Below are positions 24,150 through 30,184 of a stretch of 41,071 nucleotides of DNA, piece after piece. The position numbers and the translations under genes are program-made. Every line of letters starts with the position of its first letter. The stretch's first letter is position 1. The notes beneath the pieces are model-generated. The model was not told the origin of the DNA. It saw only the letters and a program-made list of their open reading frames with translations, and did not search any database. Source of the stretch: Acidimicrobiaceae bacterium (GTDB lineage Bacteria > Actinomycetota > Acidimicrobiia > Acidimicrobiales > Aldehydirespiratoraceae); NCBI GenBank assembly GCA_028819505.1, contig JAPPLH010000070.1, forward strand, positions 51,100 to 92,170, given 5' to 3'.

Positions 24150-24347
24150 CGGGGATTGATCGGCGAGGTGGTGTGGGTGACCTGCGACTCGGTCATCTGC
24201 GACGAGCAGGGTAGCATCGACCCGCTGCGCCTGGGCGCCAACGCCCGGCTGGGCCCGCGAACCTTCCTGCGGACCACCCGCGAGGGCGCCCATTACCTGG
24301 CCCGCACGCCATGGTCCGGGTTCGTCGCCAACGACAAGGAGACATAG
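24150..24347 (+). pseudogene. C-terminal stub resembling a flavin reductase
   Basis: About 63 residues beginning directly after the hydrolase stub's stop codon, in the same frame: LIGEVVWVTCDSVICDEQGS, then IDPLRLGANARLGPRTFLRT. This matches the GxVxxVHxDDxVLxExGxIDPxxLxPxxRLGG end of flavin-reductase-like FMN-binding proteins. Its stop TAG at 24345-24347 overlaps the E1 alpha start codon, and its last codons supply the AAGGAG ribosome-binding site of that gene. The lost reductase was therefore probably the original first gene of the operon. Confidence 0.5.
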
Positions 24348-25324
24348 TGGAGACGTCGACACTGCTGGACCTGTACCGCGACATGTGGCTGATAAGGGCC
24401 TTCGAGCAGGGCCTCGAGCGCGAGTTCGAGAAGGGCAACGTGCCCGGGATGCTGCACACAGGGCTCGGCCAGGAGGCCACCCAGGCCGCGCTGGCCTGGC
24501 ACCTGAAGGCCACCGACACCTTCTTCCCCGACCACCGCTGCCACGGCATCAACGCCCTGGCCCAGCAGCGCCACGGCGGCAACGGCGAACGGGTCATGGC
24601 CGAACTGTTCGGGAAGGCCACCGGGGTTTGCAGCGGCAAGGGCGGCAGCCTGCACTCGGCCGACCCCGCCGTGGGGAACTTCGGCGACAACGCGGTGGAG
24701 GGCTCCTACATGGCCACCGTGCTGGGCGTGGCCCTGGCCGCCAAGATGCGGGGCCGGCCCAACGTGGCCTGCGCCATCATCGGCGACGGCACGGTGGGGC
24801 GGGGCGAGTTCCACGAGAGCCTCAACATGGCGGCCATCTGGGACCTGCCCGTGCTCTACGCCTGCATCAACAACGGCTACGCCATCTCCATGCCGGTGGG
24901 CGAGGGCCACGCATCGGCCGACATCGTCGACATGGTGCAGGGCTACGGGTTCGGCAGCAGTCAGGTCGACGGCAACGACATCGTCGAGGCCTGGACCGCG
25001 GTGGGCGCCGCGGTCGAGCACATCCGCTCCGGTGCCGGCCCCTGCTTCCTGGAGTTCAAGACCTGGCGCTGGCAGGGGATCTTCGCCGGGGAGTTCCGGC
25101 CCGAGGCAGAGGTCAAGTACTGGAAGGAGGAGCGCGACCCGATCATGCTGGCCGCCGAGGCGCTGGGCGAGCGGGGCGTGGACCATGCCGAGCTCGACGC
25201 CATCGAGCAGGAGGCGCGCGACGTGATCGAGGAGTGGATCGGATTCGCGCTGGAGAGCCCGGCGCCGGACCCGGACAAGGCCACCGCCGACGTCTACGTC
25301 GGCTGGGAGGTGTCGTCGCGATGA
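24347..25324 (+). CDS. 2-oxoacid dehydrogenase E1 alpha (TPP-dependent)
   Basis: Alpha subunit of a thiamine-diphosphate E1 heterotetramer (pyruvate/acetoin dehydrogenase type), 325 residues from GTG 24347 with AAGGAG 5 nt upstream. The substrate-channel motif GKGGSLH is at 97-103 and the TPP/Mg motif runs from GDG (146-148) to NN (175-176), with GRGEFHESLN between. LHTGLGQEATQAA near 36 is typical. It decarboxylates a 2-oxoacid or cleaves an acyloin and passes the acyl unit to a lipoyl domain. Its stop overlaps the E1 beta start by ATGA. No E2 or E3 gene accompanies it; instead a free lipoyl protein and C1-type enzymes follow. Confidence 0.93.
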   Translation: METSTLLDLYRDMWLIRAFEQGLEREFEKGNVPGMLHTGLGQEATQAALAWHLKATDTFFPDHRCHGINALAQQRHGGNGERVMAELFGKATGVCSGKGGSLHSADPAVGNFGDNAVEGSYMATVLGVALAAKMRGRPNVACAIIGDGTVGRGEFHESLNMAAIWDLPVLYACINNGYAISMPVGEGHASADIVDMVQGYGFGSSQVDGNDIVEAWTAVGAAVEHIRSGAGPCFLEFKTWRWQGIFAGEFRPEAEVKYWKEERDPIMLAAEALGERGVDHAELDAIEQEARDVIEEWIGFALESPAPDPDKATADVYVGWEVSSR

Positions 25325-28484: not shown

Positions 28485-29207
28485 GTGACCGCCACCGAGT
28501 CCGCAGTGGCAGTCGTGACCGGCGGAGGGTCGGGAATCGGTGCGGCCTGCGCGGCCGCTCTGTCAGCCTGCGGCACCCATTGTGTGCTCGTCGGGCGGCG
28601 GGAGGACCGACTTCGGGACACGGCCTCGGGGCTGGCCTCGCCTGCTACGTGGCTGGCGGCCGACCTGACTGAGCCCGGAGAACCGGGACGGGTCGTCGCC
28701 GAGACGCTCGCCGTCCAGGGACGGATCGACGTGATGGTACACAGCGCCGGGGTGTTCGAGAAGGCGCCGGCATCGGAGGTCACCCCGGGCCACTGGCAGC
28801 GGGTGCTGGACGTCAACCTGAGCGCGGTCATGGCCCTGACCCGGGCAGGCTGGGAGGCGCTGAGCGACTCCGGTGGCCAGATCGTGCTCATCAGCAGTAT
28901 CGCGGCGGTACACCCTTTCGAGGGCAACGCGGCCTACGCCGCCTCCAAGGGCGGCATGAACGCGCTGGGCGAGGTGCTGCGGCTGGAGGGACGGGGCTGC
29001 GGCATCAGGGTGATCACGCTGTGCCCCGCCCAGATCGACACCGAGTTGTGGGACGGCAAGGCCCCCGATGCTGTGCGGGCTCGGATGATGCCCGCGGACG
29101 GCGTGGGAGAGCTGGTGGCGAGCCTGGTCGGCGCCGACCGTCGCATCGACATCGGACCGGTCGTCATCCGGCCCGTCCACGACCCCTGGGTGGAGCCCGG
29201 ACCGTGA
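28485..29207 (+). CDS. Short-chain dehydrogenase/reductase (second)
   Basis: Classical SDR of 240 residues. TGGGSGIG (12-19), catalytic Ser138, Tyr151 and Lys155 (YAASK), and LCPAQIDTELWDG after the active site. It starts only 7 nt after the Mch homologue and its stop overlaps the LLM start (GTGA), so it is translated as part of the same operon. It differs enough from the SDR at 26663 that the two probably have separate steps. Shorter than FabG-type members, with an Arg-rich cofactor end (VGRREDRLRD), which suggests NADP preference. Confidence 0.9.
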   Translation: MTATESAVAVVTGGGSGIGAACAAALSACGTHCVLVGRREDRLRDTASGLASPATWLAADLTEPGEPGRVVAETLAVQGRIDVMVHSAGVFEKAPASEVTPGHWQRVLDVNLSAVMALTRAGWEALSDSGGQIVLISSIAAVHPFEGNAAYAASKGGMNALGEVLRLEGRGCGIRVITLCPAQIDTELWDGKAPDAVRARMMPADGVGELVASLVGADRRIDIGPVVIRPVHDPWVEPGP

Positions 29208-30184
29208 CCGCCGACGAGCTGGCTCTGGGCCTTCAGATCGTCCCGACGATGGGCTCGGCCGAGCTGATCGACACCATCGTCACCGCCGAGGAGCTCGGCT
29301 ACTCCTACTGCATGGTGGCCGACGAGGGCCTGATGCTCGACGTGTACGCCGTGCTGGGCGCGGCGGCCCGGGCCACCAGCACCATCCGCCTGGGAGCGGT
29401 CACCAACCCGTACACCCGCCATCCGGCCGCCACTGCGGCCGCGATCGCCACCGTCGACGAGATGAGCGGGGGCCGGGCCTTCGTGACGCTGGTGGCCGGC
29501 GGCACCATGGTGCTGCATCCGATGGGCCTGGAGAGATCGGCCCCGCTGGCGATGATGTCCGACACCATCGAGGCGCTCCGGCTGCTGTGGCGGGGCGAGC
29601 CGGTCACCTGGCAGGGACGCCGACTCTCGCTGGAGGGCGCCCAGCTCACGACCGGCGCCCACTCGATCCCGATCTGGGTCGCGGCCCGCGGCGAGCGGAT
29701 GCTGGCGCTGGCCGGCAGCCACGCCGACGGCCTGGTGCTGATGGTCAAGTCCGATCTCGGCGACGCCTTCGGCCTGGCCGAGCAGGCCCGGGCGGCGACC
29801 TGCGCCCCGCCGCTCACCCGCGTCTACCTCGACCGCCTGGCCTACAAGCCCGAGATGATCGAGGAGGCCAAGCACCTGTACGGCTACGCCATCATGGACA
29901 GCCCGCCCCGGATCCTCAAGAACCTCGGCCTCAACGATGCCGAGATCGCCGGCCTGAAGCACGCCTTCACCGAGGGTGGCCCCGAAGCGGTGGGCCGACT
30001 CGTCACCGGCGAGCTGGTGGCCTCCTACCAGATCGCAGGCACGCCCGCGGAGTGCCGCAGCCAGCTGGAGCACCTGATCGGCGCGCACCGCCTCGACGCC
30101 TTCTTCGTGAACATCATCTCGCCCGGCCCGGCCGCCAACCGCGACCTGCTGACCGAGGTGGTCTCCATCGCCACCGGCCACTAG
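29204..30184 (+). CDS. LLM-class oxidoreductase, Mer-like (F420-dependent reductase type)
   Basis: 326-residue luciferase-like TIM barrel. The segment VTNPYTRHPAATAAAIATVD with EMSGGRAFVTLVAGG is close to the F420-dependent methylene-tetrahydromethanopterin reductase (Mer) signature, and the length fits Mer. Other landmarks are TIEALRLLWRGEPVTW and IPIWVAARGERMLALAG. Many other LLM enzymes share parts of this, so Mer activity is inferred mostly from the neighbouring Mch homologue. GTG 29204 overlaps the SDR stop. Last gene of the operon; no clear terminator hairpin was seen after it. Confidence 0.85.
   Translation: MTADELALGLQIVPTMGSAELIDTIVTAEELGYSYCMVADEGLMLDVYAVLGAAARATSTIRLGAVTNPYTRHPAATAAAIATVDEMSGGRAFVTLVAGGTMVLHPMGLERSAPLAMMSDTIEALRLLWRGEPVTWQGRRLSLEGAQLTTGAHSIPIWVAARGERMLALAGSHADGLVLMVKSDLGDAFGLAEQARAATCAPPLTRVYLDRLAYKPEMIEEAKHLYGYAIMDSPPRILKNLGLNDAEIAGLKHAFTEGGPEAVGRLVTGELVASYQIAGTPAECRSQLEHLIGAHRLDAFFVNIISPGPAANRDLLTEVVSIATGH

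Follow-up and report, generated by a model that had tools for sequence, protein, structure and literature searches.

A cyclohydrolase homolog of a separate Mch clade in an E1/lipoyl operon of an Acidimicrobiaceae bacterium: a possible recruitment to N-heterocycle catabolism

We analyzed a 41,071-nucleotide stretch of DNA from an Acidimicrobiaceae bacterium (hereafter the window, G000:C91:51100-92170, where G000 is the host genome of 3.73 Mb in 167 contigs, 94.18% complete) that carries seven same-strand genes in the order E1-alpha, E1-beta, lipoyl domain, SDR1, Mch, SDR2, and LLM. The products are the two chains of a thiamine pyrophosphate (TPP)-dependent E1 component of 2-oxoacid dehydrogenase type, a free lipoyl carrier, two short-chain dehydrogenases/reductases (SDRs), a homolog of the cyclohydrolase Mch of tetrahydromethanopterin (H4MPT)-linked one-carbon (C1) chemistry, and a luciferase-like monooxygenase (LLM) family oxidoreductase similar to Mer. 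We propose, with confidence evenly balanced for and against, that this operon is part of the catabolism of an imported bicyclic N-heterocycle, its putative substrate, and not of H4MPT C1 interconversion. The substrate is probably pteridine- or purine-like and bears a polyol or sugar side chain. Recruitment fits better than C1 transfer because H4MPT markers are missing and key sites of both Mch and the LLM enzyme are changed, and because the Mch genes of Chloroflexota are multiplied and lie near importers and deaminases.

The window Mch is full length and a true member of its family, as an earlier reading of the letters alone (hereafter the sequence-only reading) had claimed. It matches PF02289 over the full model and scores above the TIGR03120 equivalog cut-off of 228.8 bits (Table 1), which rules out an origin in an unrelated family. 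Its predicted structure (pLDDT 93) has a TM score of 0.93 to PDB entries 1qlm and 4gvq at 33-40% identity. In a tree of 58 Mch sequences, rooted by midpoint and containing some long branches, 45 'cluster-type' sequences were split from 13 canonical ones at 100/99, and the split held at 100/99 (45 versus 37 canonical) after adding 24 archaeal Mch drawn from a sample where 27 of 121 genomes matched. The number of Mch copies per genome reaches five (G426), with four in G425, two of them fragments; two different Mch occur in one locus (L033) and within 12 kb of each other in G445.

Two alignment columns, in which the alignment appears sound, separate the canonical and cluster-type sequences completely. 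The column of Af E140 contains Glu in 37 of 37 canonical proteins and Gln in 45 of 45 cluster-type proteins (Q143 in the window), and the column of Af F280 contains Phe in all 37 canonical proteins and His (39), Asp (5), or Asn (1) in the cluster-type clade (H287 in the window). With two canonical invariants replaced, the window Mch may not be a functional H4MPT cyclohydrolase. The Arg/Glu pair that the sequence-only reading regarded as likely catalytic is indeed present (R186/E189), and across the clade Arg183 is found in 45 of 45 sequences and Glu186 in 41, with Asp in the other four. We take Arg183/Glu186 to be the catalytic pair of Mch; the single piece of support for this role here is that PDB 4gvr has Gln where 4gvq has the Glu of the pair. 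Compared with the canonical Mch of known structure (1qlm, 4gvq, 4gvr/4gvs, and 4fio), the window protein is alike in its full-length fold and its retained Arg/Glu pair, and differs in its separate clade, in the replacements Glu140->Gln and Phe280->His/Asp/Asn, in its E1/lipoyl operon, and in a host without H4MPT markers.

The LLM enzyme had been described as Mer-like, and this description holds for its overall similarity, since Mer models are its best NCBIfam matches and Mer structures (8qpl and 1z69) its best PDB matches. However, its scores with two Mer models, 170.5 and 151.8 bits, are below the respective cut-offs of 276 and 348.7 bits, and it has Gln at Mer Glu6 and Gly at Mer Asp96. None of 45 LLM rows from the analyzed loci (a set that includes overlapping copies and also LLMs from outside the operon) keeps Glu6 or Asp96: position 6 is occupied by Gln (32), Asn (5), Trp (3), Val (2), His (1), or a gap (2), and position 96 by Gly (43) or Trp (2). 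According to the kinetic data given in PMC11094777, jMer retains 0.4% of its kcat with Glu6Gln and 4% with Asp96Asn, and the residue equivalent to Asp96 in the Escherichia coli methylenetetrahydrofolate reductase (MTHFR) binds the pterin N3 and exocyclic amine. We infer that PDB chain 8qpl is the jMer of that paper from the fit of Glu6, Asp96, and Phe233 and from Gln6 in 8qq8; position Gln178 of the paper reads as Asn in the PDB chain and was excluded from the comparison. Because Glu6 and Asp96 are lost, the LLM enzyme is unlikely to catalyze the reaction of Mer in the way that Mer does. The joint loss of Glu140 in Mch and Asp96 in LLM would fit a substrate shared by both enzymes in which the pterin 2-amino/N3-H pattern is absent, for example a deaminated ring resembling lumazine or xanthine.

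The host has folate and F420 genes and none of the H4MPT markers that we searched for. Ribofuranosylaminobenzene 5'-phosphate (RFAP) synthase (TIGR00144) scored over the cut-off in one of 33 genomes, a Bathyarchaeota one and not G000 (genome G445 was outside this search), with weak matches in G416 (29.6 bits), G425 (25.4 bits), and G424 (19.2 bits). The model does see bacterial forms, because a control, the bacterial RFAP synthase of an annotated H4MPT island, scores 135.2 bits against the cut-off of 113.5; it is not fully sensitive, given that the weak match of G424 comes from a genome with an Fhc/Ftr/Mch cluster (L097). Fae was found in none of 34 genomes, an absence that alone is not taken as proof because G424 has its Fhc cluster without Fae, and Ftr was found in three of the 34 (the Bathyarchaeota genome, G424, and G445), not including G000. 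With RFAP synthase, Fae, and Ftr missing from G000 and with Mer and Mch residues lost, the H4MPT/F420-linked C1 route suggested by the sequence-only reading is mostly unsupported. Its F420 part fares better. PF01933 matches 33 of the 34 genomes, but also control organisms, which are not known for F420; in G000, the match was verified as F420 CofD (TIGR01819, 293.7 versus 257.45 bits), which keeps an F420-linked step possible. A canonical H4MPT route, its carrier either scavenged or synthesized by genes missed in our searches, could draw on the Mch score over the equivalog cut-off, on the imperfect RFAP synthase model with its 19-bit match in G424, and on the approximately 94% completeness of the host metagenome-assembled genome (MAG). 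Set against the three searched markers absent from G000, the separate Mch clade with E140 and F280 replaced, and an LLM enzyme without Glu6, it appears highly improbable.

FolD is present in 31 of the 34 genomes, G000 included, so that folate already has a methenyl-tetrahydrofolate (methenyl-H4F) cyclohydrolase. The folate C1 chemistry of the host would also accommodate a role of Mch and LLM on tetrahydrofolate, as argued in PMC8305020 for the haloarchaeal Mch/Mer homologs, which are likewise relatives of these enzymes in hosts without the methanopterin pathway. Despite this precedent, we consider a folate substrate very unlikely: FolD supplies the cyclohydrolase in nearly all of these genomes, several of which have multiple Mch copies, and the one haloarchaeal Mch examined keeps both Glu140 and Phe280, which are lost in the window clade. 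A host with folate as its sole pterin C1 carrier, together with a loss of pterin-binding residues, had been named as a finding that would contradict the sequence-only reading. This is partly the case: no other carrier pathway was found in G000, and its Mch has lost two invariant residues, possibly ones that bind the pterin.

The second option of that reading, the recruitment of Mch and Mer relatives to another cyclic-amidine substrate, is the one that we favor on the basis of the clade-wide residue changes and the missing H4MPT markers, with the cyclic amidine itself as a putative element. In the proposed pathway, the LLM enzyme, using F420 or flavin, would alter the redox state of the ring, and the Mch homolog would hydrate the cyclic amidine and open it to an N-formyl product, which is the same chemistry as the methenyl-to-formyl hydrolysis. 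Deaminases and amidohydrolases would strip nitrogen. Side-chain oxidation, and the cleavage of a 2-oxo or alpha-hydroxyketone intermediate that would leave an acyl unit on lipoate, would fall to the SDRs together with the E1/lipoyl module, which is joined by E2 in relatives. The dedicated E2 catalytic gene is gone from the window lineage, where the acyl group would then have to exit via another E2 or acceptor. A similar logic is seen in the E. coli cluster for reductive uric acid degradation (PMC12507026), where a reductase, a COG0402-like hydrolase, and a Mo-hydroxylase act on a purine-like ring; the pathway as described there includes no Mch, and the substrate of the window operon is putative. 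Locus L040, with ornithine carbamoyltransferase-like and dihydropyrimidinase-like genes (by eye), was likened to the uric acid cluster.

Genomic context in Chloroflexota was assessed in 21 Mch regions totaling 274 kb, for which 20 control regions (390 kb in all) were taken from five of the same genomes; the p values are uncorrected, some genomes contribute more than one region, and L054 and L055 belong to a single contig. COG0402 amidohydrolases were found in 9 of 21 Mch regions and in none of the controls (p 0.0013; 8/20 without the seed locus, p 0.003), as were BMP-type ABC importers in 7 of 21 (p 0.009; 6/20 without the seed locus, p 0.02) and FGGY kinases in 6 of 21 (p 0.02; 5/20 without the seed locus, p 0.047). 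The SDRs were present in 10 Mch regions versus one control (p 0.004), or 9/20 versus 1/20 without the seed locus (p 0.008). Solved relatives of two deaminases include S-adenosylhomocysteine/methylthioadenosine (SAH/MTA) deaminase, atrazine chlorohydrolase, and 8-oxoguanine deaminase; the BMP-type binding protein has matches to Lbp, BmpA, and an atrazine-binding protein, and FolM and pteridine reductase appear among the many SDR matches of one SDR. Creatinine/sarcosine, autoinducer-2-like, and sulfosugar-like pathways were also considered from the companion genes, and the full set was seen in no locus.

Several points weigh against the catabolic reading. In the same comparison, the LLM, Mo-hydroxylase, aldehyde oxidoreductase (AOR), and DAO genes were not enriched, and neither aldolase, TIM isomerase, nor Fe- and Zn-dependent alcohol dehydrogenase (Fe-ADH and Zn-ADH) genes differed significantly. 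The 22 seeds were chosen from the clusters under test, and COG0402, SDR, LLM, and FGGY are broad families. Of 24 sequences from Acidimicrobiia, four have BMP permeases and the window alone has COG0402. Linkage of the window amidohydrolase to Mch may be inherited synteny: of 23 genomes searched, 14 have a close copy (at least 84% identity), which in nine lies on the strand opposite to Mch at a distance of 15-36 kb, in four on another contig, and in G408 463 kb away; G406 and G407 have no close copy. Finally, with its Arg/Glu pair conserved, the window Mch may still act on a methenyl-pterin.

We examined 32 loci, found when two short conserved peptides were used to scan named genomes, and therefore not a census; most come from MAGs of Acidimicrobiia (among them Candidatus Aldehydirespirator catecholifindens), with several from Chloroflexota and one from Bathyarchaeota. 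In 27 of these loci, SDR1 immediately precedes Mch, and SDR1, lipoyl, and E1-beta are together upstream of it in 22, in both Acidimicrobiia and Chloroflexota, so a gene order unique to this contig is ruled out. E1-alpha is present in 19 loci and LLM lies downstream of Mch in 23, some of the misses being due to short contigs. Two SDRs flank Mch in the window, as noted before, but SDR2 is not a core gene (19/32). In a sample of the window's class, Mch was over the cut-off in five of 395 genomes, with a sixth match under it; four of the five are listed as the window's genus (G000 included) and one belongs to another family. The sample of the phylum of L036's genome had Mch in two of 400 genomes, one being that genome itself. 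Three pattern matches in viral contigs were all unrelated to Mch. The literature search found no paper joining Mch with lipoyl and pyruvate dehydrogenase and none for Aldehydirespirator or for Arg183/Glu186 of Mch, and no such operon was among the titles listed, which leaves absence from print unproven.

Conserved order also bears on the idea that the E1/lipoyl and Mch/LLM tasks are unrelated and share an operon by chance or common regulation. Four loci (L037, L038, L040, and L042) have Mch outside the operon order despite enough sequence, and L023 retains Mch and LLM with no SDR1 within its 1.3 kb upstream, as this idea would allow. We nevertheless find it quite unlikely, given overlapping genes and an upstream order kept in 22 loci of two phyla.

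As the sequence-only reading stated, the upstream half of the operon is a 2-oxoacid dehydrogenase head with a lipoyl carrier. It resembles pyruvate and acetoin dehydrogenase complexes in its E1-alpha, E1-beta, and E2-type lipoyl domain (top NCBIfam match, acetoin dehydrogenase E2 N-terminus; lysine within ETEKVENE, by eye), and differs in that the lipoyl domain is a separate protein and the operon has no E2 catalytic gene. Such a gene lies within 2.5 kb upstream of Mch in 11 of the 32 loci, and L033 has one further upstream; NCBIfam groups one of these upstream proteins with E2 acyltransferases. In a search of 11 genomes, the E2s of G000 were only distant (best 34% identity). The E2 gene is also missing from the operon position in L024, the window's genus, and L031, and it was probably lost more than once, because L031 branches elsewhere in the tree.

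Our main rival explanation, which we regard as unlikely, is a C1 pathway on a pterin carrier other than H4MPT or folate, in which E1/lipoyl would decarboxylate a short 2-oxo acid (e.g., glyoxylate) and pass a formyl group via lipoate, and Mch, SDR, and LLM would interconvert the formyl, methenyl, methylene, and methyl states. These three enzymes would cover the required steps. Malate synthase G is encoded directly downstream of Mch-LLM in L007 (13328-15805) and L023 (by eye), and in G445 a region of L135 (C38, 5846-19509) combines an Ftr homolog (PF01913, 89 bits) with two MttB-like methyltransferase/corrinoid-protein pairs (by eye). On the other side, the LLM enzyme is without the acid that the Mer reaction needs, as reported in PMC11094777, several divergent Mch per genome are ill-suited to one carrier, the carrier-synthesis genes were not identified, and the E2 genes of relatives suggest CoA as the acyl acceptor. 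An isocitrate lyase-like gene (by eye) was observed approximately 9 kb downstream of Mch in L027 (11039-12208). The G445 Ftr homolog is also accompanied by genes for a Zn-ADH, a COG0402 amidohydrolase, a DhnA-type aldolase, and an FGGY kinase (by eye), and may be a further C1 enzyme that was recruited along with the companions seen near Mch. A broader form of the recruitment idea, which we put forward as a doubtful possibility, is an undescribed family of Mch-derived ring-opening hydrolases that would work alongside a Mer-like LLM enzyme, and in at least one genome an Ftr homolog, to break down imported compounds of pteridine or purine type.

The coordinates of the operon, where all seven co-directional genes proposed earlier are present with Pfam matches, and of neighboring genes are given in Table 1. 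The reported overlaps were confirmed at three junctions, ATGA at 25321 (E1-alpha/E1-beta) and GTGA at 26663 and 29204, but short gaps lie between E1-beta and lipoyl, between SDR1 and Mch, and between Mch and SDR2. The probable start of E1-alpha is the GTG at 24347, as in the sequence-only reading and in agreement with the starts of its relatives; the same ORF has an upstream ATG at 24311.

Table 1. Genes of the E1/lipoyl-Mch-LLM operon and tentative or remnant neighbors in the window
Feature	Position	Strand	Evidence
FGGY-type kinase, tentative member	8305..9630	-	PF02782 80.7 bits
Zn-dependent alcohol dehydrogenase, tentative member	9786..10802	-	33-34% identical to L042/L095 Zn-ADH
COG0402-type amidohydrolase, tentative member	10970..12379	-	PF01979 126.6 bits
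Flavin-reductase-like gene remnant, 62 aa	24156..24344	+	61% identical to C-terminus of L011 6233-6904 (PF01613)
E1-alpha, TPP-dependent 2-oxoacid/acetoin dehydrogenase-type	24347..25324	+	PF00676 191.2 bits
E1-beta (transketolase-like)	25321..26364	+	PF02779 133.6 bits, PF02780 123.3 bits
Free lipoyl domain, 91 aa	26391..26666	+	PF00364 75.7 bits
SDR1, core gene directly upstream of Mch	26663..27439	+	PF13561 207.2 bits
Mch homolog, separate clade	27518..28477	+	PF02289 342 bits over full model; TIGR03120 280.1 bits
SDR2, accessory gene	28485..29207	+	PF00106 145.5 bits
LLM-family oxidoreductase, Mer-like in sequence	29204..30184	+	PF00296 168.9 bits

Three window genes were included as tentative members of the system. 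The amidohydrolase shares 27-31% identity with amidohydrolases from the Mch clusters of Chloroflexota, and the FGGY-type kinase has 26-33% identity over part of the FGGY kinases in such clusters; the Zn-ADH of L042 and L095 adjoins an FGGY kinase. In eight sister loci, a flavin-reductase-like gene (PF01613) is located just before E1-alpha, and the window keeps 62 C-terminal codons of it. The segment at 19827-24344, where the sisters have the flavin reductase, looks rearranged and contains a DUF4143-like ATPase gene (by eye), similar to one at 6470-7963 (Pfam), and an NTP-transferase/HEPN-like gene. Directly after the operon, on the opposite strand, 30423-35868 encodes an AMP-ligase and hydantoinase B and A, a set shared in the compared stretch by only L013 among the 32 loci. 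A second LLM-family gene lies beside a class III aminotransferase gene at 2003-4457, approximately 20 kb from the operon.

Further neighbors of Mch were noted by eye in other genomes. A NodB/polysaccharide-deacetylase-like gene adjoins type IV Mch in L088 (4035-4622; G426, Chloroflexota) and L101 (7131-7727; G410, Acidimicrobiia); a deformylase at this place would suit an N-formyl product. A RibD C-terminal-domain-like gene is found beside type V Mch and COG0402 in two Chloroflexota genomes (L090 3015-3977 and L092 7090-8076).

The presence of Mch is commonly taken to indicate methanogenic or methylotrophic C1 metabolism. Because the window protein passes the TIGR03120 equivalog cut-off, an annotation pipeline would label it as the true enzyme. 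If the clade does other chemistry, then C1-pathway calls based on mch only would be unsafe in Acidimicrobiia and Chloroflexota genomes. The two clade-defining Mch positions make the recruitment idea directly testable, and, if it is true, two enzymes of one C1 pathway would have been recruited jointly to a new substrate.

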